A stretch of DNA of 64,000 bases. It comes from Siphonodentalium dalli (Eukaryota; Mollusca; Scaphopoda; Gadilida; Siphonodentaliidae). The first letter of the stretch is position 1. The number at the start of each line of letters is the position of its first letter. The translations under genes and the position numbers were made by a program. Under the pieces are notes generated by a model. That model worked only from the letters and a program-made list of their open reading frames with translations, was not told the DNA's origin and did not search any database. Location of the stretch: positions 252,590,484-252,654,483 of the forward strand of contig CP136064.1 of assembly GCA_032622095.1 (NCBI GenBank), given 5' to 3'. Shown piece after piece: positions 9,263 to 34,335 of the stretch.

Positions 9263-9280
9263 ATTTGGGAACATGTCTCT

Positions 9281-12069: not shown

Positions 12070-12111
12070 GTTATTTCAAAGAATTAACTGGATAAATCGA
12101 GTATAGCAAAA

Positions 12112-14529
12112 ATGATAACATGCTTCATATGCCGGAAAGAGTTTTCATTAATAAAATCTCTGAGAAATCATCTTAACCTCCATCAATTTTCTGGCGAGCT
12201 TAAATACCCTATAGAATGCAGACAGGATATATGCAGCAGCACATTCGTGAATGTTTCAAATCTCATCAGGCATATAAAATCATTCCATCCAGCTGATTTA
12301 TCAGCAGCAGATATATCGACCCCAAACATAAACACCGAAGATGAAGTAAATTCTCTTTCAGAGAGTGATGTGAACCCCGTTCATTCTGACATAAACAGGG
12401 AGTCCGTTCTTGAACAATGTACCGAAAACATACGCGGCGAAGGAATTTCATTAACATCTCGTCTGAGAGCAAACAGTTCCGTGCCATATTATATAATTCC
12501 GGAAATTATAAAGGCATGCAACAGAATGATAAACATTACAGTGGAAAATGTCATTGAATCAAGCCCTAATACGGAAGAATTAGAATGCCTGAAAGATCCA
12601 TTAATTTTTCTTGACAGTGAGTACAAGCAGCAGAAGTTTTTTAGTGAGAATTCAAATTTTGTGAAACCTGAGAGCTGTTTTCTTGGAACACGTTTTGAGA
12701 ATAAATGGGACAAAAAATCGAGCAGTATGAAGCCAGTTATGACCCCTGATTCATTTTGGTATGTTCCAATCATAAAGACGCTTGAAGCTTTACTGAAGAA
12801 CCCAGTTTTCCTTGAATGTGTAAATTTAAACCAACGTTCGCAAACTGAGATGATAAAAGATTTCTGTGATGGTACAAAGTATCAAAATAATGAATTCTTC
12901 AGTAATGGAAACTCACTCATGCTTCAACTGTTTTTTGATGAAATGGGTACTACAAACCCTCTTAGAGGTAAACAGTCAATCCACAAAATTGGTGTTGTAT
13001 ACTTTGTGATAAAAAACCTACCTCCCAAATTCAACTCATCATTTGGAAATATTCATCTAGTAGCTCTTTTCCATTCCCTTGATTTGAAGAAGTATGGTTT
13101 CAATCGAATACTCGAGCGAATTGTTCTTGACATTCGAGTACTGGAAGAGCTTGGTGTCTGCGTGAATGATTCAAAAATAAAAGGTGCAATATGTCAGGTC
13201 ACGTGTGACAATCTAGGTTTAAACTCTATCTTTGGGTTTATTGAGTGTTTCAGTGCAGATTCATTTTGTGTGTTGTGTTATGCGAGTCGCGAGGAAATTC
13301 AAACCAAATTCTTGGAAGAGGAATTCGTATTAAGAAATAGAGACCTGTATGCCAAGGATGTGAGTGAGGCAATTCAGAATGGGAGGCATGAGAAAGGAGT
13401 TAAACGAGAGTGTGAGTTAAATAAAATGAAACATTTCCACATTATGGAGAACCATACCAATGATGCAATGCATACACTTTTGGAGGGGGTTGTGCCATTG
13501 GAACTGGGAATGATACTGCACAGACTCATAAATATTGAGGCACATTTTTCTTTGGAGACATTAAATAGTCAAATCAATGATTTCTTCACTAAACTGATTG
13601 TTGGTAAAAAAAACAAACCATGTGAAATCAACAAATTAGCAGAAAACACTCATCTAACTGGTCAAACTGCCACACAAACATGGAATCTGCTTCGATTTCT
13701 GCCTCTAATGGTTGGTGGTTATGTTGATTATGACAACAAGTATTGGGAATTACTGCTCAAACTTTCGGAGCTCGTTGACATCTGTTTTGCACAGTCATTC
13801 ACTGAGGGCATGTTAGTATATCTTACAGATTTGATAGTTGAGCATCATAGCTTATTTGCTGAACTATTTCCAAACAAATACTTGATTCCAAAGCATCACT
13901 TCATTGTGCACTTCCCCAATATTATCCGGAAAACCGGACCTCTTATTAACTCATGGTGCATGAGGTATGAGTTAAAAAATAGTTTTTTCAAAAGGAGTGC
14001 CCACATTGTTTGTAATTTCAAAGACATTTGCAAGACTTTGGCATTTCGACATCAATATGCAGCTGTTCATCTCCAAATGGCTGGTCGGCACATTAAAGAA
14101 TACTATCATCCTGGAAATACAAACACAATAATGGCAGACTCTCTGGCTAATGCTGAATTAATTTGTAATAGTCTCAACATTCAAATGACAGATTTCGTTT
14201 CCCAGGCATACAAGATTGAATATTGTGGAACACTATATCGACGCAATTGTGGTGTGGTTATCAAATTTGACAATGAGTTGCCATTATTTGGCAGAATAAT
14301 TGATTTCATAAAATCAGATATGGAAGGAAATTGGTTTGCTAGACTACACATCCTTGAAACTGCTGAGTATAACAATCATTTGAATGCATATGAAGTGAGA
14401 GACTCATCAAACAACAGTATGATCCTGATTTCAGTTAAACACTTTCTTGATTACCAACCACTTGACATTGTTAAAACAAATGAATGTAGATTATTTGTTA
14501 GACTGAAGTATCACATTGTAGATGAATAA
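12112..14529 (+). CDS. CACTA (EnSpm)-type transposase, 805 aa
   Basis: The single intact coding exon follows a splice acceptor at 12069, and an in-frame TAA lies between the acceptor and the ATG, which fixes the start. Two zinc fingers open the protein: C4, C7, H20, H24 and C36, C41, H54, H59. The core resembles the En/Spm transposase family. Seen are FFDEMGTTNPLRG with D276, followed by a hydrophobic strand and NLPPKF; CDNLG with D366; CVLC at 386-389; and HTNDAMHTLLEG with D451, H454 and E458. Residues about 591-628 (IPKHHFIVHFPNI, GPLINSW) resemble the DUF4218 region of plant CACTA transposases. D276 and D366 with E458 are my proposed catalytic triad, unproven. An AATAAA overlaps the stop codon. 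No frameshift or stop is present, so the gene may be functional. Family recognition is by motif, not search. Confidence 0.85.
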   Translation: MITCFICRKEFSLIKSLRNHLNLHQFSGELKYPIECRQDICSSTFVNVSNLIRHIKSFHPADLSAADISTPNINTEDEVNSLSESDVNPVHSDINRESVLEQCTENIRGEGISLTSRLRANSSVPYYIIPEIIKACNRMINITVENVIESSPNTEELECLKDPLIFLDSEYKQQKFFSENSNFVKPESCFLGTRFENKWDKKSSSMKPVMTPDSFWYVPIIKTLEALLKNPVFLECVNLNQRSQTEMIKDFCDGTKYQNNEFFSNGNSLMLQLFFDEMGTTNPLRGKQSIHKIGVVYFVIKNLPPKFNSSFGNIHLVALFHSLDLKKYGFNRILERIVLDIRVLEELGVCVNDSKIKGAICQVTCDNLGLNSIFGFIECFSADSFCVLCYASREEIQTKFLEEEFVLRNRDLYAKDVSEAIQNGRHEKGVKRECELNKMKHFHIMENHTNDAMHTLLEGVVPLELGMILHRLINIEAHFSLETLNSQINDFFTKLIVGKKNKPCEINKLAENTHLTGQTATQTWNLLRFLPLMVGGYVDYDNKYWELLLKLSELVDICFAQSFTEGMLVYLTDLIVEHHSLFAELFPNKYLIPKHHFIVHFPNIIRKTGPLINSWCMRYELKNSFFKRSAHIVCNFKDICKTLAFRHQYAAVHLQMAGRHIKEYYHPGNTNTIMADSLANAELICNSLNIQMTDFVSQAYKIEYCGTLYRRNCGVVIKFDNELPLFGRIIDFIKSDMEGNWFARLHILETAEYNNHLNAYEVRDSSNNSMILISVKHFLDYQPLDIVKTNECRLFVRLKYHIVDE

Positions 14530-14631
14530 ATTAAGGGGGCGCATATTTTGCATAAATCCGGCCAAAAATTACAAGAGATTTTCAACAAAGAATATCTCTG
14601 GATCTTTCTGGCGAAAATTCTAGAATTTCAC

Positions 14632-15054
14632 ATATGTGACCCGTCATATTAAAACCAGTCGTAAGTCGAAAAATATTTTATTTGAGTTATGTATTGCATG
14701 CTATAGAGTATGATAAGAGCTTTACATAGGTCACACACTTTAATAAGGGGATACCTTGTTGTGGTCCAAAGCAATATGATTTTGAATGTCAGTGTCATCA
14801 TGAACCGATTTCAGAGATAATATCGTTTAAAGACAATCAAATTAGTTAAATTCTGAATAAATATACACCAATATATGTCCAAATTTCAGAACTGCAAAAA
14901 TGGACACAAACTTCACTTTATGCTGCTCTATGTGACTTTGTCTAAAACTAAAATCATAATCTTTCGCATTTCTAATTTTCTATCATAATTTAGGTATTTA
15001 CTCAGTGTTAGCAAACCCATCTTACGACTGGTTTTGATATTGTGGGTCACATAT
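14632..15054. mobile_element. 423-bp MITE with ATATGTGACCC ends
   Basis: ATATGTGACCC at the left is inverted at the right, and the match extends through AAAACCAGTCGTAAG. It lies about 100 bases past the transposase stop. Non-coding. Confidence 0.75.
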
Positions 15055-15417
15055 CATCTTTGTTGTATATAGAAACTGAGACATTATTAAGAGACAACAA
15101 CAACAATGGATTGTAACTCATTTGAGAGGTTGAAAATATTATTTTATTTTCTGTCCATTTTCGGTACCAAGAACTGCTAGAATAATTAATAAATTTTACA
15201 CGTCTCTCCAATCACAAAATAGCTCTTTGTCTTGGTTCTATGAGAGGAGGCTTCATTTGTACCATAATGTTGAGTAATTTTTTTAATTGCATAAAATAGC
15301 ATCATACCCCCCCAGCTATTATATATTTTGGAACTTCTGTCTGCCTGTGCATGTATGTATGAGTGTTATAGACTGGAAAACTGCTCGACCAATCAGTTTT
15401 CTAATTGGTATGTAGGC

Positions 15418-15662
15418 CTACTTTGATCCGGGAAACAATATGGGCAGGTCCAATTTCACATGCAACTGTGTCCTTGACCTCACTCATATACGCTCATATA
15501 TAGGCATGTTTCTGGACCTCGACCGATCCGACTCAAATTTAGTATTAAGCCTACTTTGATCCCGGGATCAATATAGGTTCTGCAATATCACGTGTGACCG
15601 TGTCCTTGACCTCGCTCATATATGCTCATATAGGCATGCTTCTGGACCTCGACCGATCCGAA
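15418..15662. repeat. direct duplication, about 125-130-bp period
   Basis: Two copies share GCCTACTTTGATCC, TGTCCTTGACCTC, ACGCTCATATA or a close variant, and TCTGGACCTCGACCGATCCG. Confidence 0.8.
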
Positions 15663-16357
15663 AAATATTATTTTTCTTTCTCCTGATGGAGGCAATCACA
15701 AATAAATCCCTAGATAACCTGGACGAAGTCGGGCACATCAGCTACATGTAGTATATAATATAATGAAGCATACAGCAGTCACAAATGTTGATATGCAGTG
15801 TGGTCCACTCAAGCAGGGAACAATCAACTAGAATTAAACCACAGTGTTAAGAGATCTGGTGTCAGCTTTAAATTGGTTATGAACCCATGACCCACAACTA
15901 ATCTCAGCCCAATCATGCATTGATTAGGTATGACAGGAAAATTCTCAACTATACAGTGAACTATAGAAAATCGTTGCCTTTCTAAATGAAAGTAATCATT
16001 AAATTTCATGGATCAAGAATAATTAAGTCTCTTCTCATGATCTTATGGATATTATGAATTGCACTTTTGAAAACAAACTGTTTTTATATCTTGGTACCTG
16101 AAAACAGTGAAATTTTAAGTAATTGAGTTTAATATAGTTTTCTACTGGTTGATGGTTCTTAAATATTGTGTCAGAATAATCTGACCGATAATGGGAAAAT
16201 CCATTTTGAATTCCAGAAAAGTTTGACAAAATGTGCGTCTGACCCTTATTGTTCAGTAATTATGAATATATACAACTTATTTCCAGTGATTTCAGTGTTG
16301 GGTTCGCTAAATAACTTGGGAATCTCAGTTTTATATTAGTACATGTACGTGTAAACT
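15663..16357. other. AT-rich stretch, nothing recognised
   Basis: No gene, RNA or clear repeat could be supported here. Confidence 0.4.
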
Positions 16358-16549
16358 AGTACTCTCACCTGGCTACTATTAATAATAGAGATGACATGAA
16401 TATTCATTCTCAAAGAAAAATCCCATAATCACTATTATTTGGAAGTGAGTCAAAGAGCGAAAATGCCATCACTCACTAGTTTAAGTAAATAATCCAGCCA
16501 ACCACTATTATTCAGCCATCACTATTATTATTATGCAGGTGAGAGTACT
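16358..16549. mobile_element. 192-bp foldback MITE, AGTACTCTCACCTG ends
   Basis: AGTACTCTCACCTG at the left returns inverted (CAGGTGAGAGTACT) at the right, enclosing AT-rich imperfect palindromes. Confidence 0.65.
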
Positions 16550-16848
16550 GCACAAATTCAAATATGAGTAAGGTACGGCCATGGTTTATTAATTTTATTT
16601 TTAGCATCAATTGCCACATTTCCTTTTTTGGCAGAAAATAATAATGAATTTTATGAATTATCAGCACAATTCCGAAGATTGTCCCTTGTTAAAATTCAGA
16701 TAGGAACATTTACTGATAGTCCCTTGACAGATGCTTCATTCACATACTAGTAAAATGAATATAATAAAGATTGGTATCAATATAAATGTTATATTACTCT
16801 TATGACTCATATAAACACACGGGTACACTTATTAACCCTTTGATGACT

Positions 16849-17065
16849 AAAGCTTCCTGAATTTTTGCGAAAACCCTATGCCAATACATTCTCTTATACC
16901 ATAGGGCACTCGCATAAGAGAATGCATTGGTCTAAAAATACCTTGGAACTTGTAAAGCCAGTGCATTTTCATAAATAAAAAAAATTGTCAGACTCACTAT
17001 TGGAGACTCGCATATAAGAGAGTGCAATGGGCAATGGCACATACACCAGCGCAGCTCTGATCATG
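16849..17065. repeat. palindromic repeat with ATTCTCTTAT/ATAAGAGAAT
   Basis: Paired words such as CATTCTCTTATACC and GCATAAGAGAATGCATTGG fold on each other. A related stretch lies at about 21240-21510, sharing TTTGCGAAAA with a nearby AAACT/AGCTTCCTGAA block in inverted order. Confidence 0.5.
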
Positions 17066-18806
17066 ACAGAGTTAAATTACAAGTAAAAACCCCCTTGTAT
17101 CAGCCTGTATGCGACTTATTTTAGTCCCTATAATTATTTTCACTTGATTCCAAATGACTGATTTTCATATAAAAACACATCAATTTGATGTATAAAGATT
17201 ATGAAGAATAAGACAAAGGCTAACACAGATTCTCTTGGACCTTATAGCACTAAAAAAAATATGTTGACCTCCCCCTTGTACCACTATTCCGCCCCGTATG
17301 TTTATTTGGAGTCCAAGAGTATCATTATAATGTATATTCACATGTAGTACAAAATAAAGTTCTATAATAAGAAACCTATAGACTCCATATCGAGAATAAT
17401 TAATAATAAAAAATCACCTCATTTCGCATTTAATTCAGATTTTCTCAGAATCCTGGATGACTCTAAACATAAACTTAATTAACCATGACTAAGCCAAGAA
17501 TATATGGATAAAAAATTTCAAATAGACCACTTTAATATTGTTTGCACATCTTGTTTTGCATGGAGGCCCTAAAGATTCCCACTCCTATTCATCGGTCCCT
17601 GTTATCAAGTAAGATTCAAGTTTCCACATAAAAAAATGTTTTTGAAGATATGTTGTTACTTGATAATATGGGGGTCATCTGATCGGATTGAGTACCTTTA
17701 AGTAAGTGACCTGTTTAATTTTGAATGTTCTCAATCTAGTCCAGTGCATTTATGGTTTCACCTCAAACTGATTGCAACGCAAAGTTTCTTAGTGGGAATA
17801 AGTACTTTAACCCATCACAAACAACTAAAATCAAAAGGAATCAAGAAAGGCAAAATTGATGAATTTTGTGAAATAAATTTGTAAAAATTTGGTAAAATAC
17901 TCAATTTATGGCTTTTCAAGAATGTTTATAAAAACAATTGTTTCACGAGGCCTTCCATTTATATATCCATTTTGTAGTGTACACAGCTCTGATTACAGAA
18001 CAGAAAACATTTCCCAGATATGTTGAGTAGTTTTTGAGTTATGTGCCTCCAAATTATGGAGTTTATCTAATTTCGGAGCCTCAATTTCTCAAAATTAGTT
18101 TAAATCCATTTTTTATGTGCGTGTATTTTAAAAACTAAAGACAAATAAAGAGATTTCTTGTTGTTTTAGTCATTTCCTCACTTGGTTGAGCAGAAAATAT
18201 GATTTCTTTATGCATCTATGATTGAGATGACAAAAATATTCTTAAACAGAATGTGTGTATAATCACTTATTAAAGTAATGTGAAATGCTCCGGTAGGGTG
18301 ATCAAATATAAATTGAGATTAATCTTGCTCAAAGTACATGTTGTTATTTTTTATTATTACAGTCATTCTTATATATTAATTAAATGCAATGACTCTCGAT
18401 GGCGAAATCATTTGTGTTGCATCCCGAATCGAGGTGTAAATATTTATAATTGGGCGTAGTTCAGACGATGTTTTCTATGGAGTGGTTTCAGTGGTATGGT
18501 TGAAATTTTCAGCGATGTTAGTAGAATGCTACATTACCCAGGTTGGCATAGCGCCTGAGTACTAACTTATCAATTTCACGCATCCGAACAAGTCCATAAT
18601 ATGTCTTTAAGTATACATGGTTAAACACACTGTGGAGGAATTTCCAAAATCATGGTGTAGAAAATCAGATTATGGCCCTATGAACCTAAGAATGGACTCT
18701 TTTATAAAAATGCCATTTTGGGCATTTTTTTTCAATTTTCAAAGGTTACAAATGTGTATAAACAATAAAAAACAATGTTCGTTTAATGTGTAAAATTGGT
18801 GTCAGA
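17066..18806. other. AT-rich stretch, mostly unrecognised
   Basis: Contains a one-sided remnant of the TTAA MITE end at about 17675-17702 (GGATTGAGTACCTTTAA) and a TACTCTTGGACTCCAAATAA-type end near 17297-17322. No coding signal. Confidence 0.4.
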
Positions 18807-19926
18807 CCGATTCTCCGAAGACCTATTACTACGAAGGCCCACAACTCCGAAGACCCGATTCTCCGACGGCCCACAACTCCGAAGACCCGATTCTCCGACG
18901 GCCCATAACTCTGAAGATCCGATTCTACGAAAGCCCATAAGTCCGAAGGGCCGATTCTCCGAAGACCTATAACTCCGAAGGGCCGATTCTCCGAAGACCC
19001 ATAACTACGAAGGCCTGATTCCCCGACGGCCCATAACTCCGAAGGTCCGATTCTCCGAAGGTCCGATTCTCCGAAGATTTTGTTTTATCGGGGTATTATC
19101 GTTTACTAAATAGTGTACAGTCCAGTGGCGAAGCCAAGGGGTCCCAAAATTCCTACTGCCCCCATTAAACCTCTACTTGCTATTTCAGACAATATGGGCC
19201 CCTACCAAAACATGTCCAATATCATGTAAACGCCCGGAAATTGTTCATGGGGCATCAAAATATTCAAACTTTTCCTACTGCCCCCACCTAATTGGGAATC
19301 CTGGCCCGCCATTTCTTTGAAGTATTTTCAGTCGCCAGAAAAAAAGGGCGAGTTCTGCCCCTTTGGCCCCCGTTCGCCCCTGTCGTGTTAGGCTACTCTG
19401 ACATTCTTGCAGCATTTCGTTATAATATACCCGGTGCACACCAGTGGCAAAGCCAGGGTTCCTATTTAGGGGTGCACATTAATTATCATATGTGGGGGAT
19501 ATATCATGCATATGATATGCCGAAAGCCTGATTTGGGGAACGCATGCATGGGAGGGGTCGCCCCAATCGTTGGTCCGGGGGCTCCCCTGGGCAGGAACAC
19601 TGTGAATATTTGAATGCCTAGGACGGATTTCCGGACGTTTACATGACATTTGACATGTTTTTTGGGGGGCGGTCTTCCCTAGGGCCCCATTGACTCCGCC
19701 ACTGGACTGTACACTATTTAATAAGCGATAAAACATGATCTTCCGAGAATCGGCCCTTCGGAGAATTGGCCCTTCGGAGTTATAGTCCTTCAGAGTTATG
19801 GGCTTTCAGAGTTATAGGCCTTCGGAGTTATGGGCTTTCGGAGAATAGGGACTTCGGAGTTATGGGCTTTCAGAGAATCGGGGCGTAGGAGAATCGGACC
19901 TTCGGAGTTATGGGTCTTCAGAAAAT
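18807..19926. mobile_element. second element with inverted short-tandem-repeat ends
   Basis: The left arm (18807-19079) is an array of CCGATTCTCCGAAGACC / CATAACTCCGAAGG words. The right arm (19741-19926) is the inverse (CTTCGGAGTTATGGG, CTTCGGAGAATCGG). Just inside them, ATAGTGTACAGTCCAGTGGC inverts to GCCACTGGACTGTACACTAT. Its design matches the element at 9281 although the word differs. Confidence 0.7.
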
Positions 19927-21239
19927 CGCTACGTAACCGTAAAATTATTTGAACTTTCCCCTTAAAACACTTTAGTGTTGAAATAATAGCCTTATATTGG
20001 ATATGTTAATGAATGTCACTGAATTTCACTCACTTTTCTGGAAACTGACGTGAAATTTGAATATCTGAAAATTGGCGTAGGGGAAACCATATTGACAAAA
20101 TTTCAGAAAACATGTTGATACATAAAACTTTACCATCACCAGCTCCTACAATCATTATTCTTTGATACAGAGTATACTGCTTCCTATTGTGATGTTCATA
20201 TTTAGAGCTACAATCCTTTTTGTTGCAACTCGATGGCAAAATGGTGAATCATTAAAAAACATTGTGTTGCAATTAGTTTGAGGTCTGGAACTTTTTTCTC
20301 ATAAATGCACTGGACTAATAATCCTTTCATTATTTTGTACAAACTATATTGCTATTGATTGACTATCAATATTATATATGTGTGTGCTTTTTAATTTGCT
20401 TATTGTAATGTGAGCAATTTTCAGAGAGTGAAACTGAACTTCTGAAGTACATGTGTTGCCAGGTAAGTACACACCAGATTAGCTTTTTTCAGGGATACAG
20501 CTGTTGGTCTGTCTGTCCATTTATCTGTCCATATGTCCATCCATCCATTGAGTATTTAACTAAAAAATTGGGCTCCATCTGTGCATATATCTCAACCAAA
20601 TAGAATGGTTGTAGGATCTAATTGAAATTTTATGTGGAGGTTCACAATCATGACTGCTTTCAAAATTTGCTAAATGAAACTATTAGAACACAATTTAATA
20701 GCATGCAGATAACAGACTTGGAATTTATTCCAGGACTGATATATTATCACAAAGGTCCATGAGTGGTTCTCCAGCTGATGTATGGGACAAAAAACACTTT
20801 TCAAACCCACTGTTTGCTGGCAATGGACAGATTTTGCAAAGTGATGTGTTCTACCAAGACCACATCTAACATGCAGTCATGAGCAGTTACAATTGATCTT
20901 TGTTCTCAGACATCCCCAATCCCCTCAGTGAATGTCCTTAGAGACTGATTCGTAAGCATTGAGTATGGCACGTAATCTGAAATATACATGTATCTTGTCC
21001 ATGCTAAATTAATAAATTTGAATTACTGGAGCTTTCATATAGTGAGTGCCATGTGCGGGTCATGTACCAGGTTCAGATTGTAGATCCAAGTATAGTTAAA
21101 TTAAAAATAGTCGTATAATTTGGCTTTGCATGGCATGTGGTATATGACAATAACATCCTCACCATTCGAATGTTAAGGAATACTATCGCTTATCTCTTGG
21201 CATTCGAATGGTAATAAAGTATTAAGGAACATGGTCTTT
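19927..21239. other. region upstream of the SAM gene, little recognised
   Basis: AT-rich. One possible non-coding exon is listed separately; otherwise no supported feature. Confidence 0.4.
20425..20462 (+). other. possible 5' UTR exon of the SAM gene
   Basis: A 38-base stretch sits between GCAATTTTCAG and a strong donor, CCAG then GTAAGT. It does not open a frame into the next exon, so it could only be untranslated. Confidence 0.3.
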
Positions 21240-21510
21240 AGTCTTTAACCCTTTCATGTCGGGATCTGCGCTTGTGCAGCATTAAAGATCCTGTGCCAGT
21301 GCATTCTCTTATTTATGAGTCTCCCATTCGGAGAATTTCATATATAAGAGAATGCACTTGCTTACAAGGTCAATGTAGATATTGTTAGTCAATGTATCCT
21401 CTTATATATATACGAGGTGCCCAATGGATGACTCACATATATTGGAGAATACATTGGCAGAGGTTTTCGCAAAATTTCAGGAAACTCCAGTCATGGAAGG
21501 AATCAAATGA
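21240..21510. repeat. palindromic repeat related to 16849-17065
   Basis: Shares AACCCTTT, ATTCTCTTAT, TATAAGAGAATGCACT and TTTTCGCAAAATTTCAGGAAA with the copy at 16849, partly inverted. Confidence 0.5.
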
Positions 21511-21744
21511 CATCTCTAAGCAGTTGAATGCTAAGAATTGCATCTCTTAGATGGTTGAACATCAGCACATTGTACACGTATGCCAGCACCACCAATGCAA
21601 TCTCGTGTTTTAGGCTAACAATAATATATTTGTCTAATATAGTCAAAATTGTGATCTGATTTGTGGTCTGTCATTCCAATTTTAAGGGGGAGGGGTATCC
21701 GGTTGAAAATATATACATGTAGTTCTTTTAACCTACCAGGTGTG

Positions 21745-21919
21745 ATGAAACTTCAAAATAAATACATATTCAACCACTTCAGGTCTTCTCAAGAGGAAAT
21801 ACCATTAAAGGTATCATCACCTCAAAATGAGGTTCAACCCGGACCCAGCGACCAATTGATTACCATGATAACTACAATTATCCCTTCAATGGATGATGGT
21901 ATCAAGCAGAAAATCAGAG
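21745..21919 (+). CDS. SAM gene coding exon 1 (residues 1-58)
   Basis: Ends at a GTAAGC donor with one base left over. The stretch GPSDQLITMITTIIPSM begins the SAM-like region. Acceptor upstream is CTACCAG at 21739; a second, CACTTCAG, lies inside the exon. Confidence 0.65.
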
Positions 21920-24900
21920 GTAAGCCATTTGTAAATAAATTGCCAAAAAAATATATTTACATGTAAATGTACATAATTATGCTGGGATTTTCTTGGTGCT
22001 TCTGTGATCTAAGAGAGAAATACCATATACTGATTGTATCAATTATGTTAAATTTAAACAGAGATAAAAAGTAAGTTCATACTTTGATGTAATATGCATG
22101 AAATAATTTGGTATCCATTTATTATTTCATTATACAATGATATGTGCCAATATATTATGCCATACTCATACAATTTAAAATTTTCTATCTTATTATGACT
22201 AAAATAATTTCAGTGAAAAATACCTCTTGAGTATTCAACTTTTAAATGTTTCGACACTTGTGATGCAGACCAGACCGCTTTGGACCGGTCCGGTCCGCGG
22301 TCCAGTCCAGACCGGGTGTCACTGGACCGGACCGCTTTTTGCCACCGGTCTGGTACTCTCCGGTCCGGTCCACTATTTTTCTTCAGTTATAATAAACTAT
22401 CGCGAATATTATTGCGTATTTGCCGTCATATCAATTAGCAACGATTTATTGATACATTCAAGTGGTTAATATCTATGTAGCACCCTATCAATGCGACAAA
22501 CATGCACCTGAATGAATATGGAACTATGTGTTATAAACAGTGTAACATGGGATCAACTAATCAATTTGGATGGATATCGAATCGAGTATTCTATTGTTTT
22601 TCACAGTTATATTTATCGAAGAAACATGCAAACCACATTACATAGTACATACACAAGACAGTCACATTAATCCAATAGTAGTTGTACTTAGGTATATAAC
22701 TGTAATTGTCAGGACTATACAATCAGCCATCACAATCTCCAAGACTCCAATATTAATGTAGTAGTCATATTAGTACACATTAATTTTGTATAATTGTCAT
22801 CAGTATAGTTATTTCGTTTAAATTTCAATTTAATGAAAATATGTATGATACGAATCATGCATATGATCAGTTGAGTGCCATGTTAGATTGGTTATAACAC
22901 ATTCTGGCCCTATCTACTAGTATATATCTGTCCAATACATTTAATCAGTGCATGTTCGCATTACTAGACATACTATTATCGTGCATCGTTCCCAGTATAT
23001 CCCACTAGAGACAGACAATGATGCATACAATCGGCAAACAATGCAAGTTTTAACATATACAACTGTATGGACTCATTGCAATGCACAGAACTCAGTAACC
23101 TTATAGTTTGTACTATACAGAGTAAAAACTTTGAGAAAACAGAGAATTCATTAACATATAGCCTATTACAGGTGGACCGGACCGTTTTGGACCGGTCCAG
23201 GCATATGTACCGGACCGGAATGGACTGGACCGCATCACTATTCTACACAGTTGGAATCGGTGATAACTTCATGCGCTGTATTGAACATAGTCAAATGGCA
23301 AACTTCACAGATTTACTTGTACCCATTGCCTTTGAGCATGTACCCCAAGCTCACTATTAAAGAAAGTTGCCATGTTAATTGAATATGATAGAAACGTACT
23401 GTATATATCCTTTCTTTTCCAACAGACGAAGATCTAGATTTAGAAAGCTTCCGACGACTAACCGAAGAAGATCTGATTGAACTTGGTTTCAAGATGGGGC
23501 CTCGGAGGATGTTGAGAGACCTACAAGCCTCATCCACTCGATCCCCCAGCAACAGTGCAATCACCAGTGACTGTGTGTCAGATCCAGTATCTGATGTTCA
23601 GACTATGGAGATAAAGGCAAGTTTTATGAAAAATATTCAAACAATTATCTTATGTCTTAGGGTCGTTGACATTGGTGTAGATCTGTATACATATCTGTGT
23701 GAAGTATATACATGTCGCAGATTACTCTGGTTACTGATAAGTGAATGAGCACTAATCAGTACTCTGGTAATTGACAATCCACTATGTCAGTTTAGTACAG
23801 ACCAAAAAAAATTAATCAAACAAAATTGATTTGATGTTGCGTCAGACCGAAGTATGTCTACAAGTTCTTTTTCGCCTCACGCGTCTTGGTGTAACTTATG
23901 CTCTTTAGTTTTCAGAGTGATTCCCATGTTGGCAATTCCTCCGTCAGTCTACATTATTATTAGAAAAATAATAGGCAGAAACTATAGCAATGATATTAAA
24001 CCCACATGAAAATTGATAACCTCACCAACAGGTTACTTCATCTATGACCCCTATCACAGAAAATGTACAAAATTTCCCATCTATTAAATCACAAATTTGT
24101 TAGAATATAACCACCACAAGGCACATGACCTAGATTATATGCTGCGCTAGTCAACGTCAGATTATATGTTATTAATTGGCTGTTTCCATATAGACCGAGG
24201 CCTCATAACTTGGTCAATGCGTGCAACAATGTAATAATTGCTTCATATGATGAATATATTAACAGATATTAACAGATACCTGTACCATTGTGTGTTTTAT
24301 TAAATTAACAATTATTCCAGCAATTTTTATTCTTGTGAATTTTGCGAAGAACTTGCAGCAATTTCACAGTACTGTCTGTTTCCACTGGTAACGATATTTA
24401 TACACATACATGTAGTTCATCCATATGATTTTTGCTCTCACAAATGAATACTATTTTCTTTCTGTGTGCATTTCTATATCAACCCGTTCATACTAGTATG
24501 CGTGTAGAATTGTATACAGATCTACAGCAATGTAAATGCATCCCTACAAGTGGGATGTAAAACTATTACTAGTAGTTTACAGAATCACCTCATTTGTAAA
24601 ACCATGTATTATCTTATTGGTTTGTCCAATCACTTTTTTCATTTCTTGTCTGAACTGAAGTTTGCTATGTGTGTTTACTGGCACTAAAGTTGAAGTTGAA
24701 GTTTTAATTCAGGTTCTGATTGCTAATTTTCGCCAGAGTTACAACCCTTCAAAGTTTTTGTTGGAATTTGAACTTAATTTTAATTTCCAGATGATAACAT
24801 TGGTAAATCTGAATTGAATAGAATGCAATATAATATGGTCAAGTTCAAGTTTGGGTGCCCCACCAATTTCCACCACCGTTAAGGTCTTTTGTTGAAATTG

Positions 24901-27900
24901 CCATATTTTGCCACATCCTGCTTTAACATAAATTAATACATTCATTATGGAAAGCAAAATACTTTTATTTTGTAAAATAGCCCTTTCAACTCAAAATGTT
25001 TGGCAACCCTTTTCTTAAGCACTATTGTTGTAGCCAAATATTAGGGTTGTAGAATGCACCCCAAAATGTATCTTATTCCCAACTGGCCACCTCACAATGT
25101 AGCTTTCATAAAATTAAATAGTGGATAACCAAAGTTTTTTTCAATTTCAGTATGACATTCAAGGCATTCTCTCATCAACCAAAGCAGGGAGAGATCTCTA
25201 CCATCTATTTTCAAGGCCCGGGGACTTCAAAACAGAAAACAGAAGATCGATGGTCCGAATCCTGGGGAAACACCTGATGAACAATGCAAACAAGTAAATA
25301 ATGAGCATTCAATTATCATACTATTCGCTATACGCAGACAATTGAATTAAAATTAATTGGCAAAACAGAAATTGGTCTATCTGTAGAATTTTTTTTAAAA
25401 GTATTTACCTTACCACATTCACTGCTGAAAACGAATGGGTAATTCCATCTCATATGCCACTATGGGACTGCATGTTTTTACAATAGTATATTACGTATGC
25501 GGGAGTGATCATTCCACCACTATCGAGTTATATGTTGGTGAAAGAGAACCATAAGGCTTCTACGAGATATCTCGTAGTGGGCACCTGGGACAGAATTTAC
25601 CAGTGTGCCAAATGTTGCTGGTTCCAGCTATGAGTTTTCTTGTAGGTAAATACATATTACACTTTTGATGACTTATATAATGTAAGTGAGCAATCCATAT
25701 TAGGGATCTGCGAATCGGGGATTTTGCATCGAATCGAATCTCAATATCGAATCTCCTTCCTGATATCGAATCTCGAATCGAATTAGCTAGAGTATCATCA
25801 TTGTTTTCCCTCATGACAAAATAACTTGCAAAATTCACTGTGAATTTGGAACTTGTGTTTTTTTTATAGTAATATTATGACATAGGCAAATAACTCTCAA
25901 TATCATGGAGGGTTTGGGATATATTGCATTGAATTTCTATCTAGCTATATATCATGACAAACAAGACACACGAAATGACAGTAATTAGACACTTAAAGAC
26001 TGTTCAATCAACGTATCACAAACACAATGGAATGAAACTCACTTCTCTCCATTATTTAATAACGATAATAAAGATTTAAAACAAATTGACATGGATACAC
26101 CATTCAGCAATATAATTGTTGTAGTCACTGAACCAGTCAATTAAAATTAATATAATACAATGTTTTATATGAAATTTATATTAAACAGAAAAAACAGTCC
26201 CACAAGAGATGAAAAGAATGCGATGGGCTATGCAATAGTATCAGCTTTTCCTAAACTGAAGATGCTGGGAACAAAAAATCTACCAGATGGAACAAGAACA
26301 AAAGAGTGGGTAAGTATAAATTATAGCATTTTGTCACATATGTGACACATTCTTATGTCATAGTAGAAATCAGAACTTTAAATTGTGTCATATGTAAATA
26401 TATTAGGTGGCAATTACAAGACCAGTTCTGAAATTCTTTGATTTTCTAAATCCGGCATAAATGGAAACATCAACAAGAGGTGTGCACTCGAGTGCTTAGC
26501 ATACCCCCACCGTGGCAAATTCAACCTGCATTATCCGTAAACTCAACAAAAAAGATTTTTAACTTTAAAGAAAATTTCGGACTAATGATATCAATATGGT
26601 GTCACAAGAAGCTTGTGCATAAAAAATTCAAATCGGTTCATATTTGTTAAAATTATTAAGTCAGACAGAATTTTCTAAGTCAAAATAAGTCGAAAATGAA
26701 GTGTAATATTACGAAAAACAGTCTGAGCCAATCCCTAGCCGCATCATGTAGAGAGGGTATTGTGAGAAGCATGTATACCAAAAATTATTGAAATCGGCTC
26801 ATATTTGTTAAAGTTATTAAGTCGGACAGAATTTTCTAAGTCAAAATTTAGCATCATGCGGAGAGACCGTCCTAAGGAGATTGCACACAAAAAATTATTG
26901 AAATCGGTTCATAGTTGTTCGAGTTATGAGGTCGGACGGACACACGGAGGGAGAAAGCGTGATGGGCGGACGGACAGACGGACGGACGCAGTCAATCCAG
27001 TATACCCCCCATTTTCCTCGAAAGTGGGGGTATAATATATGGCTTACCACCTTCATAACAAAACATCATGATAATATGAGGGTCGTCCAAGGAACATGCT
27101 TCCAAAAAGAGCCAGTGGAGTCTGGTGTTTCTCCGGGTACGTACTGTAGAGATGGCGGTATTGAAATTTCAATCTCGGTACCGGTAAATTTTCATCGATT
27201 TACCTCGGTATCAGTACGGTAATCGGTATTGCTATTAAATTATAAGACCAAAGCAGATATTCCCAGTAAATAATTTTAATTCAAGTTTGTAGCTGAACAA
27301 TATACATGTATATATGACCACGGTCAACAGATTTACTACATTCTTGACAATACCTAAATTAGGCAACAAAATTACCTTCGCAATTAAGTAATATTCTCAC
27401 ATCTTTTTGATGATTTACACGTTGACCATTCCCGTGGAATTTGAGCTCGATCCGACCAGCCGTTTACGATTCTATGAAGTACCCACACACATATATACAC
27501 ACATATATACAGAGTTCTCAAATTATATAGTAGAATACATGTATTACCGACTTGTTACACAGAGTTATCATAATTATCCGATTCTCGTTGCTTACGGTTC
27601 CATGACCGGTCATACAAGTCATGCATGTCACGGCAGCGGTGATGCATATATGTTGGCAACACATGAATAATTTTATTAGTGAAAATATGGTATTTTTAGT
27701 TTTGATTCGGTAGGTAAATTGGTTTTATGCTGATACCGATACCGCCCGGTAAATACCCAGTACCGCCCATCTCTAACGTACTGTCCTCTATCGAATGATA
27801 ACATGAAAAAGGGACATGCACAAAGTAATCCAGCAAGATCTTAAACATCTAGAACAATTGGTAGATGACTGGGGTATGCGCTTTAATGCCAAAAAATTAT

Positions 27901-30900
27901 TTGTGATATGTCAATAGAATCACCACCCATTCGTAAACCCAAATGTTTAAAATAATCGAAAAGAGTAAAGTCCCAACAAAAAATTATGAGTGCCACTCTA
28001 TAATTTAGGCAGGGATGAGTGGATATGTGTTTGTGAGTTAAACCCTACTATATTTTACACCACCACAGAATATACAGTAATGTTTTAAGTAATCGACTTC
28101 TTAGCCACAGCATAATTATGGGTAACTTTTCAGGATTTAGTCGGAAATACGGTTTGTTGCCATCCATAGGAAAGCTCTCGCGGAGAGCTTTCCGATGTAT
28201 GGCAACAGACCATATTTCTGAATAAATCCTGAAAAGTTACCCATAATTCTGCTGTGGTTAAGAAGTCGATTATTTAGAGCATTACTGTAGATTTAAAATG
28301 AGTTACTTGTCAATCATATAAAACACAGCCTCTAGTTGTCTGGATACCTTTTTAGCCCAAAGGTATCACTGAAGATTCAGAAGATGAGAGCTTCTGAATA
28401 TTAAACTATTTCTGAATATTTACGTATTATCTCCCCATCAAACAGGCACATTTCTATGATGAAAAGGCTCATACAGGGTTCTTGGAGTTCTACATCCGAA
28501 ATAGGAAGACTAACAGCACAGAGATCGATACACGAGAATGGAAACGAGCAAAGAGAAGCTTGTCGCCAGAATATATGCAACTCGATCCAGAGTCAGCGGA
28601 TGAAATCTTCATGAGAACATCGGTTCCAAATGCGGCTAACCATCAACGTATTTTGGAGCTGATGGAGAAGACTAGAGAAAAGAGGCAAAGATGGATAAAA
28701 AGCCATTCTCCATCACCAGGGGAGATTTTAGCTCGGTGGCCTCGACTGATAGATACAACTGGAGCAGTAAGTGACCTGTATATACCGTATACACATCTTC
28801 TAAGTACTGTGGGCTAAGTTTAGCCTAAGATTTAGAGACATCATCATGTTAAGGGAAGCAATTCATTGCATCTAAATGTATATTCAGTAACTGAAAGATG
28901 CTTCACAAAAAGTGAAAGAGGTTCACCTAATTGAATTTGGAAATGAATTTATATATGTCGCCAAGATAACATCTGTCATACTCCTATGTTGTTAAATTTC
29001 TCACAGAGTATCATTGATGAGAATCTCGGAGGAAAGCAGTTTATACACGGATTGCCTATTATAGTCACTCGTCAATCTATATCATACACAAGTTACTGCA
29101 CCTAATCTTTCGGTATAGCAATTTAATATATACCTTTCTATAAAAAAGCAGAAATTTACCAAATTATATTGTCGTATCTATCCCTTCGGAGCTACATGTA
29201 CAGTGCATTTACGCTGTCCACTAGCCAATCAAATGCAAATAATGTATGACACCACCATTGCTGAAACAGTTGACCTATTTTTGTAGCCGGTTAACCATGA
29301 GGGGTAACCGGTTGACAACCAGATATCTGCTATTATCAACCATGGCCTTTACACTCATTGTCTACAATATAAAATGAGCAACAACCTCGCCATAATCTGG
29401 TCAAATAACTGTTTGGCGAACTCACTTAATGTTTATACATACAAAGCTTGTATTAAACAAATGTGAATCAGAAAACGCGAATGATAATAAGCTAATAGGC
29501 CAGTAAAGCCATGTGTTGAGCTGCATGAAACAGTTAACTAAAACTTGCAGTGTTTAATAAATATAGACATGTCATATGTGACCAGTTTGTATATTGTAGT
29601 CACAACTATCTAATCCTGACTTGTCATCATTCGTGTTTGGTGATAAATAAACTGCATCACCCAATTTCATGTTCTAAGTGTATGTATTTTATGTATACGC
29701 TTAGAACAATATGGAACTCAGGTCCTGAGGGTATTATTTGGCCTAGGACGATTGATGACAGTTAGACACAATTGTGAAGTTTCAACTTTCATGAATTTTA
29801 TGTATAATGAAAATAAAAATCAGCCAAGACAGTGTTTATGTTCGAAAAATTGAACAATCAAATGAGCCCTTGGTCATAAACATTAAACAAAACTCGATGC
29901 GAGTTCAACCAGTTCATTGGAACATAACTTTATCCACTGAGATTAATTATTACTCAAAGTTTAAAGGTACTCAATCCGATAAAACTCCTCTCAATTACTA
30001 TTTCAATGGCTTCAGGGGTCAAAAATATTTGATTTGAGTCGAGGAAGTCACCCATCAAAGCTCAGATTTGTTAGATATCGATTTTAGAAATCTATTATTT
30101 TTCATTATCGGGAATACTTTCTGGCCCAGATCTCAGTCAAAATTGCGTTATTATTACCACTTGATTTTAGAGTTATCCATCCTTGTCTGTTTGAATAGAG
30201 TTTTGGTGTACAAATCTCGAACAGGAAACGAAATTGATGGCAATTATTAGTACTCATGTCCAGAACATAACAAATTTCCAAAAATCAATATCTAATAACT
30301 CTGAGCTTTGTTTGATGGGTTCCTCGACTCGAATCAAATATATTTACCCCAAAGTCAAAGAAATAGTAATATAGGACCCTCTGATCGGATTGTTGTTGTT
30401 GGAATCTGTTGAGATGGGGACCCTCTGTTCGGATTGAGTACCTTTAAACTCGGGAAGGGTCGGTCGCTAGTACTGGCAATAGCAGAGCTGGTCTGTTGGT
30501 TATGGATTTTTGGTTTATACATCTAGCGACCGACCCTTCCCGAGTTTAAACTTTGAGTAATAATTAATATCAGAGCTGGTCTGTTAGTTATGGATTTTTG
30601 GTTTATACATCTCTATGTATTAAAACCCAATTGTCGTCTTTTATGTTTTGATGCCAATTAAAATATTTTTTTTTAAAGTTAAGTTCAATGTACGATTAAA
30701 CAAATGAATGATACACTGTTGTAAATCAATTAATAAATACTTCTTTATTGTGGGATGATCAATCACGATAAACATTTATGATATTGACGTTTTGTGATGC
30801 CATTTGGATATACAATTTATGAGAATAGGTGTAACACTTTGAGCAAGAATATCCTCCATTCACATAAAATGCCCACTTCAGAGGGTCTCACATCTCTTTA

Positions 30901-33742
30901 ACCTGGGCAACGCCGGGTAACCCTGCTTGATTATATATTTTCAATGTTGCTATAAAAACATTAGTGTTAACTCCACTCCAATTCAAACGATCTGATTGGG
31001 CAAAAGAAACATTATTACATATGTTAGTTTTGATTTGAAGACTTCTATCTAGTGAAATCAAACTGAATCTTAGGTTTCATCAGACCCACTGAGGGGGTCG
31101 GTAACATATGCCAGTTTTAGGAGTGTACGATCTATTACAATAGAAATCCCTTGTAAAAATTAATATAGAAAATATAATTTGCTATTGTTCTTAAACTGAT
31201 ACAGTCTCTATAAATAATTGTCTTTTATTAATCATCAGATGGAAGATGAATACAATTCAATAATGGTGACGGAAGCATCTCTGGCACAGAAACTAAAAGA
31301 TATTCAGGAGGGAATCATTTTCCGAGCAAGGAAGAATTACTGGGGTATCAGTGACATAAGGGAAATGCTTGACAGAGACGATGACAATGGAGGTGAGACA
31401 GTTCATATGAGTGATCACAGTTCAAGTAAACAAATTCTTGGAACTGAGCAGTACTATTGCCCACTTTTTCCCTTGCTGGGTGTACATGTATATATCTATT
31501 TATAATAAATATGTATCAAGACACCAACACAATTCTGTTTGGCGTTTTACACACTTATTGGTCTGTGATGTCAACAGTAAATGGTGTCTTTTACCTGTTT
31601 CAAAAAAGGCTTTCTTTCAATACTGTTCTTTTATGAATCATTTATTACCAAAATAAAACCTGATATGTAGATTTGAAATAAAATTTGTGCAACAATATCA
31701 TAATTAGCACCTGTGCATTCTTTACTTCCGGAATGACATAACATATTTGCGGAAGGATATCCAAACAAAGAAACAAATCTGGACAGACTGAAAACATTAA
31801 TTGCGTCCAACATAGAGTGGTGTATGTTATAACAAGTTTGAAGTCAATTGAAGGGTCAGTGATATGTGTAGGATACTAGTTACCGTCTGAATCTGACATT
31901 TTCTGGAAATATTGTTTCATTTATTAATCGCAAAATTAACTATAGGTTTCTTTGTTGACATGCTGTGGATCATTTGAAAAAAAGTCTATTATATATTGTT
32001 TCAAGCTCAAATGTAATGATATATCTAAATATTAAAATTTCAATACTTTCATTAACAGGGCTCAAAGACAAGAATACTTTAATGCTGTTGCCATATTTCT
32101 TGCCGGCATCCAAAAAATCAGTGAAAGAAGGGCCAAAATATAGAGGGTCTCTACTGATGATGGAATTTTGGGTAAGTATACAGCTGGTAACATTATTTAA
32201 ATTTTCATTTGTAAGCTTAGGTTAAAACCTACTTTTCAGGTACTACTGGTATTTAAGACTGGCAAAAATATTTTATTAAGATGACACATAGTCGTAGCAG
32301 CAATAGCTGTTTGTCAGATTACTATTATGTCCAAGTAACCTGTCCATTCCCAGATAATATTGGAGACAAGTCCCGACATTGCAATTGAAATGTTAATGAC
32401 TGATTCAAGATCACATTATCATTTCTATATTAGCAACGGATTGGTCAGGCGCATGGGAACACTTTATTGAACTAAAACTGTATTTCGTACCCCCACCCTA
32501 CCCCATGTATATGCATGCAAATTTGGAAGGCAACAAAATCAACTGTTACTTTATTACTCTGTTTAGTAACTGAAACAGACTCCATTTGGTTGGGGGCATT
32601 TATTCAGCAGCAGAGGAGCCTGTAGGCCCTTTGTGCCCTATGCACCTATGGCTCGGGAGCACTTTATTTCACTGAAAAACTTTATTTTCTACCACCACCC
32701 ACATATATGCATAAACATACGGAATGCAACAACATCAACTTATATAACTTATATTAACCGAAACAGACCTTTATTCGATGATGGAGTGGCCGACAGCCCC
32801 TCGGTGTGCGAAGCGCACACGCATTATAATCTTCAACAGGCTCTCTTCGGGAGCTTTTGTTCAGCAGCGTATATAGGGCCACAGGCACTTGCACTGTGGC
32901 CTATATAATAGGAGACTATTTCAAATAAATATGGATCACCATGACTGACATACCATTTAAATGCACACTTATTTTCCCGAGTCTCTGATTATTTTTTTTA
33001 TAGTGACTTGATATACAGTTTTAATAACAATCTATGCCATAAAATATGATTAAAATACTATAATTCATCACTTTTTGAAACATCTGTGTCTCAGAAGATG
33101 AACACAGAAAAAATTGAAAACTGCTGAAACCCCCCCCCCCCATCTCTTCAATATATAGAGTATTCCCCCCTGCATTAAAAGTAATACTGATTTTTACTTC
33201 AATGTTGAAAAACGCATTGGCAACTCAACAAAAACAACATGTTCACATTTGATTACACCGGATAAATTAATAATACAATGTTTTGGAGCTTCCTCTTTCA
33301 AATTGTATATAACTAGCAGGTTAGCCCGCCATATATTTTATAAAAAGAAATCTGGGGGTTCGAAAATTAAGTGGGCCTTTAAATATTGTAAGCAGGGAGG
33401 GAATGTTTCTTTGCACCTGTCAATAAGAAGTTATTTCAATATTTTCAGAATGAATCACCTGAAGAATGCATCCGCTTAGCAGAAAAAGGAGGCATGAAGC
33501 AGCCAGGAATAATTCACATCAATGATCTCTACTTCTGTTCTGTGGATAGAAACATTATTCCCATCCACAGTGAGGACCTTTTCAAGGCTGTGGAATTTGT
33601 TCTTGGAACATACTTTGTTTTCAATTTATCGTATCCGCAGGAACTCACCACAATATATAACTTTTTTGAGCAACTTGTAGGTCTTAAAGGCAGTAAGGGA
33701 AGACCATGTGTGACTGAACTTATAAACTTGATGCAAAACTGA
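21745..33742 (+). CDS. spliced SAM-domain protein, SAMD3-like, 503 aa (8 exons)
   Basis: Coding exons: 21745-21919, 23426-23616, 25151-25293, 26189-26309, 28446-28766, 31239-31392, 32059-32171, 33449-33742. Together they give 1512 bases, exactly 504 codons with the TGA, and every junction keeps frame. Seven introns have AG acceptors; six donors are GT and one is GC. Residues about 37-92 end in a SAM-like helix region (LTEEDLIELGF, MGPRRMLRDL). The middle and C-terminal parts (NHQRILELMEK, RWIKSHSPSPGEIL; VFNLSYPQEL) resemble proteins annotated SAMD3-like in fish and invertebrates, which are of similar length. The SAM N-terminal helices look short. Function is unknown; SAM domains bind protein partners or RNA. 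Inside a CACTA element it could act as the accessory protein alongside the transposase; that is inference. Introns carry several MITEs. The start codon is the first ATG after a CTACCAG acceptor; upstream exons are possible. Confidence 0.75.
22260..23238. mobile_element. putative hAT-like element with GGACCGGTCC-rich ends
   Basis: The left end GTGATGCAGACCAGACCGC is mirrored by TGGACTGGACCGCATCAC at the right. Both ends carry repeated GGACCGG words. I could not find a clean 8-bp target duplication. It lies in intron 1 of the SAM gene. Confidence 0.55.
23426..23616 (+). CDS. SAM gene coding exon 2 (residues 59-122)
   Basis: Starts after TTTTCCAACAG and carries the C-terminal half of the SAM domain. 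The donor is AAG then GCAAGT, a classic GC-AG intron signal rather than GT. Confidence 0.8.
23617..25150. other. SAM gene intron 2
   Basis: AT-rich; no recognised element or gene within it. Confidence 0.5.
25151..25293 (+). CDS. SAM gene coding exon 3 (residues 123-169)
   Basis: Between CAATTTCAG and GTAAAT. Encodes YDIQGILSSTKAGRDLYHL and a basic stretch; two bases are left over for exon 4. Confidence 0.8.
25683..25790. repeat. low-complexity GAATCG-rich patch
   Basis: ATCGAATC words recur about eight times in SAM gene intron 3, similar to decayed MITE ends. Confidence 0.5.
26189..26309 (+). CDS. SAM gene coding exon 4 (residues 170-210)
   Basis: Between TTAAACAG and GTAAGT. Encodes NAMGYAIVSAFPKLK and ends in KEW at phase 0. 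Confidence 0.8.
26463..27035. repeat. interspersed repeat with GGACGGACGGACAGACG tract
   Basis: Contains two internal repeats of AAATCGGCTCATATTTGTTA followed by AAGTCGGACAGAATTTTC. The GGACAGAC-rich end is followed by TATACCCCCCATTTTC and its inverse AAAGTGGGGGTATA. It looks like a non-autonomous element in SAM gene intron 4. Confidence 0.6.
27147..27775. mobile_element. non-autonomous hAT element, 629 bp
   Basis: Ends TAGAGATGGCGGTA and TACCGCCCATCTCTA are inverted. Both flanks are the same 8-base ACGTACTG, the hAT target length. No transposase frame. It lies in SAM gene intron 4. Confidence 0.85.
28075..28287. mobile_element. TA-flanked foldback MITE, copy 2
   Basis: Same palindrome as 8574-8787: CAGTAATG outer ends, GTAACTTTTCAGGATTTAGT in each arm, AAGCTCTCGCGGAGAGCTTT at the centre, and TA on both sides. 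Confidence 0.8.
28446..28766 (+). CDS. SAM gene coding exon 5 (residues 211-317)
   Basis: The longest exon, between ATCAAACAG and GTAAGT, phase 0 at both ends. Basic middle region (RNRKTNS, EWKRAKRSL), then VPNAANHQRILELMEK and ARWPRLID. Confidence 0.85.
28767..29940. other. SAM gene intron 5, first part
   Basis: AT-rich, nothing recognised. Confidence 0.4.
29965..30443. mobile_element. TTAA-flanked foldback MITE, copy 2
   Basis: 479 bp, ends AGGTACTCAATCCGA and inverse, TTAA both sides. It lacks both 123-bp insertions of copy 1 and therefore supplies their empty sites. Confidence 0.8.
30444..30551. repeat. inverted repeat AAACTCGGGAAGGGTCGGTC
   Basis: A 28-base arm (through GCTAG) inverts perfectly after a spacer of about 48 bases; part of the spacer is repeated directly at 30568-30610. 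Confidence 0.75.
31239..31392 (+). CDS. SAM gene coding exon 6 (residues 318-368)
   Basis: Between TAATCATCAG and GTGAGA. Encodes LAQKLKDIQEGIIFRARKN and an acidic DRDDDNG end, with one base left over. Confidence 0.8.
32059..32171 (+). CDS. SAM gene coding exon 7 (residues 369-406)
   Basis: Between CATTAACAG and GTAAGT. Encodes LMLLPYFLPASKKSVKEG and ends in MMEFW at phase 0. Confidence 0.8.
32445..32905. repeat. diverged direct duplication, about 215-bp offset
   Basis: GGGAACACTTTATTGAACT and GGGAGCACTTTATTTCACT begin two copies that both continue with CCACCC, GCAACA, GAAACAGAC and TTCAGCAGC. Located in SAM gene intron 7. Confidence 0.6.
32955..33380. mobile_element. copy of the 509-bp GGGCCCACTT-type element
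   Basis: Shares ATGCCATAAAATATGATTAA and the right end TCGAAAATTAAGTGGGCC with 9740-10248; its left end is decayed. SAM gene intron 7. Confidence 0.65.
33449..33742 (+). CDS. SAM gene terminal exon 8 (residues 407-503)
   Basis: Starts after ATATTTTCAG. Encodes HINDLYFCSVDRNIIPIHS, then VFNLSYPQEL and NFFEQLVGLKG, and stops at TGA. The last codons lie in a long inverted repeat. Confidence 0.85.
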   Translation, partial: NESPEECIRLAEKGGMKQPGIIHINDLYFCSVDRNIIPIHSEDLFKAVEFVLGTYFVFNLSYPQELTTIYNFFEQLVGLKGSKGRPCVTELINLMQN

Positions 33743-33827
33743 ATTGATAAGATGGCCAATATGAGTAAATTTAGCAATTTATTTATATTGGCCTCATCAA
33801 TTAAGTTTTGCATCAAGTTTATAAATT
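33717..33827. repeat. inverted repeat spanning the SAM gene stop codon
   Basis: A roughly 40-base left arm containing TATAAACTTGATGCAAAAC returns inverted as GTTTTGCATCAAGTTTATA with few mismatches, spacer about 25 bases. The last coding bases and the stop are in the left arm. Confidence 0.85.
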
Positions 33828-34335
33828 AGGCCAATTTAAGTAAATTGCTAGATTTACATCCAACTTTTTCAGAAAAAAGGGGCGGGAGACTGCGAGAGGT
33901 CAATTTTATTTTTTTAAACTGTGCATTGATATTGTAAACAAACTTTTCTCAAGTGTCGTTTTGGTCCAACTACATGTATCACTTTTTCGACGGGGAGAGC
34001 TGATCCGAATAATAGCTAAGATGTATTTAGATAGAATTATCGAAAGAATTTGACCGATTAGGGTGCATTTAAGAGAACCGAGTGGAGAAAACTTGGTAAC
34101 TTTTTCATCAGAAACACTGTTTGACAGTGTATCGAAGAATATGTTTCTATATGATGTAAGCGATCTAACTCTAAAATTTGGGCAAGTATTTAACCCATCA
34201 ATTCCAATGATGGTGGCTATATATAAAAAATTGAAGAGAGACTACAAATATGGTTGGAAGGGGATGTAAATCAAGCATTTTTTTTATATTGGCTTTAATA
34301 TACATAATTGGCATGTATTGTGTTCTATATGGAAA
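33828..34335. other. sequence after the SAM gene, nothing recognised
   Basis: A 68-codon open frame lies here (34063-34269) but shows no family resemblance I can name. Confidence 0.35.

Follow-up and report, generated by a model that had tools for sequence, protein, structure and literature searches.

Does an animal CACTA transposon carry a second gene of its own, and what would the second protein do for the element? In maize En/Spm, the protein TNPA is essential for transposition alongside the transposase (PMC1636069). Outside plants, CACTA elements have lacked a second protein that is conserved among them (PMC1636069). The question is raised here by one stretch of the Siphonodentalium dalli genome (C4:252590484-252654483; 64,000 nucleotides, hereafter the window), in which a transposase gene is followed by a spliced gene encoding a SAM-like protein. 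We read this stretch and searched the assembly (2.23 Gb in 9 contigs) for relatives of both genes. Comparison with its relatives shows the locus to be a CACTA/EnSpm-type (CMC) transposon of intact structure that holds two genes, one for the transposase and a spliced SAM-like one, the latter an inherited and selected part of the element.

Boundaries and insertion site of the element

The original prediction had placed a two-gene element at 12112..33742. Reading of the inverted ends and their flanks gave a wider extent, 3394-39049, with the following features (window coordinates).

3394..39049, unstranded: CACTA-type element in full, 35,656 bp, in a tRNA-Met(cat) gene (sequence of the inverted ends and flanks, empty site)
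3392..3393, unstranded: left target-site duplication, CA (sequence read)
39050..39051, unstranded: right target-site duplication, CA (sequence read)
3394..3415, plus strand: left terminal inverted repeat, 22 bp (sequence read; genome pattern count)
39028..39049, minus strand: right terminal inverted repeat, 22 bp (20/22 match with the left; genome pattern count)
3394..3543, unstranded: left subterminal array, 150 bp, nine TGTGTA hexamers on either strand
38710..39049, unstranded: right subterminal array, 340 bp, 20 TGTGTA hexamers on either strand

The left end reads CACTCTTATAAGTAATGTGTAG and the right end is the inverse of CACTCTTATTACTAATGTGTAG, with CA on both sides. The inverted repeats begin CACTCTTAT, in keeping with the CAC(T) termini of CACTA/EnSpm elements, and this motif is found at both ends in three copies (the window, C6:115.98, and C2:36.49). 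Duplications of 2 bp flank the window element (CA/CA), the C6 copy (TA/TA), and an 806-bp copy (CA/CA), within the 2-3 bp typical of the CMC clade. Subterminal repeat arrays, another mark of CACTA/EnSpm (CMC clade) elements, are apparent from the hexamer density: the 35,166 bp between the two arrays hold 29 TGTGTA hexamers, compared with 9 in the left 150 bp and 20 in the right 340 bp. Plant CACTA elements also have subterminal repeats. A genome-wide count of the 22-bp end pattern, with two mismatches tolerated, gave 956 hits on one strand and 970 on the other; the reversed control pattern gave a single hit on each. The family thus comprises roughly a thousand copies, provided most keep both ends.

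The element interrupts a tRNA-Met gene within a tandem tRNA array (101 tRNA calls in the window). When 400 bp of flank from each side were joined with one CA, the sequence was identical to another array unit (800/800) and, among the matches listed, 99.5-99.9% identical to nine more units over the full 800 bp. The insertion is therefore clean, and the claim that the tRNA unit is unbroken across it holds. The array occupies positions 1-3391 and 39052-64000, in units of ~1.33 kb that contain tRNA-Leu or Arg, Gly, Met, and Gly, plus Leu on the opposite strand; from ~57 to 62.7 kb the units are shorter, without the genes for Leu/Arg and Gly(ccc). Inside the transposon, paired inverted arrays of short CCGAAGGT-like units stand face to face ~0.7-1.2 kb apart at 9276-10654 and 18813-19919, looking like nested non-autonomous elements.

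The two genes

The element contains the following genes, all on the plus strand.

12112..14529, plus strand: transposase of 805 aa in one open frame, with C2H2/BED-type fingers at the N-terminus and catalytic motifs of the CMC type
21745..21919, plus strand: SAM-like gene, exon 1, start ATG at 21745 (a further upstream exon is possible)
23426..23616, plus strand: exon 2, C-terminal half of the SAM-like domain, GC donor
25151..25293, plus strand: exon 3
26189..26309, plus strand: exon 4, with a match in L041
28446..28766, plus strand: exon 5, with matches in L041, L042, and beside the C9 transposase
31239..31392, plus strand: exon 6; its counterparts in L041 and L042 match each other, and the window weakly
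32059..32171, plus strand: exon 7
33449..33742, plus strand: exon 8 with stop, with a match in L041

The transposase lies within an open frame of 813 codons. Its Pfam matches were C2H2 just under the cutoff, BED just over it, and a weak DUF4218 (E 0.11). C(2)C and H(3-4)H motifs between the second D and the last E are a trait of EnSpm, Plavaka, and their kin (PMC12730594). The window protein has the corresponding predicted catalytic motifs at D276, D366, C386-x2-C389, H596-x3-H600, and E620, each invariant in every covering row of a 14-row alignment. E458 shows the same invariance, but the C(2)C-H(3)H-E order points to E620, which was retained as the predicted catalytic Glu. We take the protein to be a CMC-type transposase, DDE with zinc fingers, whose catalysis is predicted. 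Neither Transposase_21 nor Plavaka (Pfam) matched it or its nearest relatives scanned (L005, L006, and L007). In a scan of nine more distant relatives (leaving out L054, nearly the same as L053), six matched Transposase_21 (E 2.2e-4 to 0.084) and six matched Plavaka (E 6.3e-6 to 9.8e-4); none of these matches reached its curated cutoff. The transposase profile gave 12 matches up to E 1 in the PDB; nine were zinc-finger chains over the N-terminus and the others were FokI (0.14 and 0.24) and a SnoaL-like protein (0.8). Elsewhere in the genome, C1:11.78, C3:14.72, and about eighteen further loci encode transposases ~25-31% identical to that of the window, with open frames of 855-862 aa and near-identical scores; these are other CMC families, perhaps active ones.

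The SAM-like gene is open over 503 codons from ATG 21745 to the stop at 33742. Its eight exons join in matching phases, as had been claimed from the sequence alone, and its donors are GT throughout except that of exon 2, which is GC (GCAAGT).

Linkage, divergence, and selection

Three SAM-like queries identified at least 30 loci and three transposase queries at least 108 clusters, both lower bounds since the search scores the best candidates only. At 12 of the 30 SAM-like loci, a transposase lies within 30 kb, and the SAM-like gene is downstream on the same strand in all 12; one of them has a second transposase match on the far side of the SAM-like gene. Random placement yielded a mean of 0.11 pairings and at most 2 (2000 trials), an expectation that ignores repeat-rich regions. 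The 12 may include duplicates with near-equal matches (C2:100.98/C2:112.01 and C3:299.57/C3:299.70). Three pairings (C5:104.30, C6:192.08, and C4:207.41) come from later transposase queries that met already known SAM-like loci. A transposase had been predicted beforehand at five SAM-like places: it was found at one, C5:104.30, and the later genome searches returned none at C2:47.11, C3:64.87, C3:156.79, or C4:247.41, while C6:192.08 and C4:207.41 emerged unpredicted. No relatives of either protein were found in viral contigs.

From the transposase side, 14 of the 108 clusters lie within 30 kb of a SAM-like locus. The gene accompanies 11 of the 13 clusters at least 50% identical to a query (query loci included), the exceptions within 30 kb being C2:116.12 and C6:155.02. 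Below 50% identity, the figure is 3/95: C4:207.41, the nearest cluster to its SAM-like locus, and C4:207.34 and C3:299.72, which are second to another. Not every CMC transposase in the genome therefore needs the SAM-like gene, which appears, from these counts, to mark one transposase clade. Genome searches revealed no SAM-like gene near the 25-31% identical transposases, and no match occurred in the 10 kb downstream of L060 and L061 (C3:230.98 and C4:133.27), a stretch too short to exclude one. The pairing extends to a transposase 36% identical to the window's (C9). The original prediction had asked whether SAMD3-like genes sit beside the same transposase family in other element copies; within this one genome, SAM-like genes do recur beside related transposases.

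Two deletion derivatives show where the gene belongs. In the C6:115.98 copy, window positions 3394-9904 are joined to 33303-39049 at 99.5-99.8% identity, with both ends and a TA/TA duplication; its last SAM-like exon is unchanged over 97 codons. Such high identity suggests that the element moved recently. In the copy at C2:220.87-220.89, positions 3394-6328 are joined to 24941 onward (95.6-98.4% identity); exons 3-8 of the SAM-like gene are present, the transposase is absent, and the left end was read, whereas the 3' (right) end was not found on reading the locus. As SAM-like exons lie inside element sequence in both derivatives, the gene is carried by the element, as had been proposed. A third, non-autonomous copy (L064), 806 bp from end to end, matches the right 236 bp of the window element at 90% and the left 150 bp at 88%; it retains the subterminal arrays and, as expected of a non-autonomous copy, lacks the SAM-like gene. 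A search for the ends of the C9 family did not yield them: homology between the C9 and C5:104 copies stops at sequence without CACT.

L041, beside a transposase 46-55% identical to that of the window, has exons 4-8 in the same order, and L042, beside one 38-50% identical, has exons 5-7; their intron places agree, as judged by eye. Beside the C9 transposase, there are matches to exon 5 (E 9e-8) and exon 4 (E 0.14), and three further loci hold C9-type exons 4 and 5 with a similar spacing. Exon 5 identity is 43% between L041 and L042, 33% between the window and L041, and 32% between the window and L042. Transposase identity is 59-60% between C4:17 and C3:299.69 and 56% between C4:17 and the window. 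Both genes rank the pairs alike, although the transposase gap is small.

Selection was estimated in 11 exon-bounded comparisons against the window, eight of which gave dN/dS ratios of 0.09-0.25. For exon 5, the ratio was 0.12 against C3:51.77 (dN 0.075, dS 0.609, p 1e-10) and 0.09 against C4:207.36 (p 6e-17; uncertain, with dS above 2 and near saturation). The others were C2:220 exon 8 (0.09), two non-independent rows from the C3:26 copies (0.20 and 0.25), another non-independent pair (C2:100.99, 0.15, and C2:112.02, 0.21), and C6:191 (0.15; uncertain, dS above 2). The outlier, C2:220 exon 5 (1.15), reflects five changes (one synonymous and four replacement) in a near-identical copy and is little informative. 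No ratio was obtained for C6:115.99 exon 8, which has zero changes, or for L041, where dS is saturated. Some copies contain stops, so part of their history was neutral, which pushes dN/dS up. By these ratios the SAM-like gene is under purifying selection, which had previously been argued from the intact reading frame.

These results bear on two other explanations for the second gene. It could be a chance neighbor or a later insertion, and the many nested repeats do show that the element accepts insertions. The copies refute this reading: SAM-like exons sit within element sequence in the deletion derivatives, and 12 of 30 loci are paired in the same strand and order against the 0.11 expected by random placement, although that value ignores repeat-rich regions. 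We consider it extremely improbable. The same observations rule out a single-copy host gene. Nor do other copies lack the gene where the transposase is related: 11 of 13 such clusters have it. A second explanation, that a host gene was captured once and rides along without benefit to the element, draws on the fact that some CACTA elements carry pieces of host genes. It also draws on the 18 of 30 SAM-like loci near which no transposase match was found: two are the deletion derivatives and the other 16 were read in part at most, among them C2:47.10, where the transposase was absent from the 8.5 kb read and from the genome search. A passenger is nonetheless improbable given purifying selection, the like exon order beside transposases 36-56% identical, and the parallel ranking of identities in the two genes.

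Fold and possible role of the second protein

At E 1, no Pfam family matched the SAM-like protein (490 of the 503 aa submitted). With the piece encoded by exons 1-2 and a threshold of E 10, SAM_1 (E 0.13) and SAM_2 (0.16) were the sole families, aligned over the C-terminal half; SAM_1 scored 13.1 bits against a cutoff of 23. The C2:100.98 copy matched SAM_1 alone (E 0.015, 16.1 bits), again below the cutoff. Of the SAM-domain protein originally predicted, the family therefore stands as the best match in both copies tried and the formal assignment does not; we call the protein SAM-like only. It is conceivable, if doubtful, that the fold is a different one and the SAM match accidental, in which case the element would still have two genes. 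Besides the half-domain, sub-cutoff matches, the PDB search is consistent with this, as the unrelated p62/Sequestosome-1 (0.0064) came slightly ahead of the SAM protein ANKS3 (0.009). Against it, SAM domains of ANKS3, ANKS6, BICC1, and L3MBTL3 were among the 11 PDB matches up to E 1. Two ribosomal PDB matches of the exon 8 profile (E 0.28 and 0.37) were taken as chance.

Our best guess, to which we give a probability of about one half, is that the SAM-like protein is a TNPA-like accessory factor for transposition. TNPA binds subterminal repeats. The role was considered on the basis of this maize precedent, the arrays retained in the 806-bp copy, and a basic stretch at residues 121-210 of the SAM-like protein (net +7 to +8 per 60 aa). 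The protein would self-associate through its SAM-like domain, make contact with the subterminal TGTGTA arrays, either by itself or via the transposase, and help bring the element ends together for cut-and-paste transposition. As a counterpoint, the transposase's own predicted zinc fingers could bind the arrays alone.

The main rival, possible though we rate it lower, is that the protein acts outside strand transfer as an anti-silencing or regulatory factor, for example via germ-granule or piRNA assemblies built on SAM domains. That the gene was detected with a single transposase clade would fit such an optional, adaptive gene. Asz1 has a SAM domain. It is a zebrafish piRNA protein (PMC11760641). 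Cargo genes also have a precedent in fungal EnSpm and Plavaka elements: in fungi, EnSpm and some other elements bear genes for TET/JBP dioxygenases, whose likely effect is to counteract DNA methylation (PMC12730594). Like our element, these fungal ones combine a CMC-type transposase bearing C(2)C and H(3-4)H with a second gene; unlike it, their dioxygenase has moved between superfamilies (PMC12730594), whereas our searches place the SAM-like protein with a single transposase clade. Retention of the gene down to 36% transposase identity, however, also fits a core role in transposition.

Two other CACTA elements are among the closest known systems. Our element shares CACT ends and subterminal repeats with maize En/Spm. 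A tnp2-kind transposase and a second protein, TNPA in maize, are also common to both (PMC1636069). In maize, both proteins derive from one alternatively spliced transcript, whereas our element encodes the second protein in a separate gene of eight exons, 7 kb downstream of the transposase; the 2-bp target-site duplication also departs from plant CACTA/EnSpm elements. SmTRC1 of Schistosoma mansoni is likewise a CACTA element from an animal; its extra proteins were proposed to be TNPA-like, and its authors found no relatives of them in other animal or fungal elements (PMC1636069). Here, in contrast, the second gene accompanies transposases of at least three lineages within a single genome (the window, C4:17/C3:299, and C9). 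No description of a CACTA element with a SAM protein was found among the literature matches listed, most subscription journals lying outside the search. One SAM-like family, itself under selection, has stayed with a transposase clade through deep divergence, and the question of an accessory protein thereby becomes testable.

Numerous gene models of fish and arthropods that bear the name SAMD3-like presumably resemble the protein in its C-terminal region. Should the family include these annotated genes, many of the models would in fact belong to transposons, and some host gene might turn out to be domesticated. In the strongest and rather unlikely version, the animal SAM-like (SAMD3-like) family would at its root be an accessory protein of the CACTA clade, host SAMD3 genes would be domesticated copies, and SAM polymerization along subterminal repeats would be a solution unrelated to TNPA.

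Two further places contain parts of the gene. At C4:93.65 Mb (L062, 2922-5420), exon 8 occurs twice, in open and almost identical copies, together with remnants of exon 7; no match to the window transposase was present in the 10 kb read, and this might be a solo relative of the SAM-like gene. On C3, at 26.23 Mb (L019, 1616-2530 and 2529-3225) and also at 26.51 Mb, satellite-like arrays (a 92-bp unit repeated 9.9 times and a 44-bp unit repeated 15.8 times) overlap matches to the start of SAM-like exon 8, on opposite strands at the two places.
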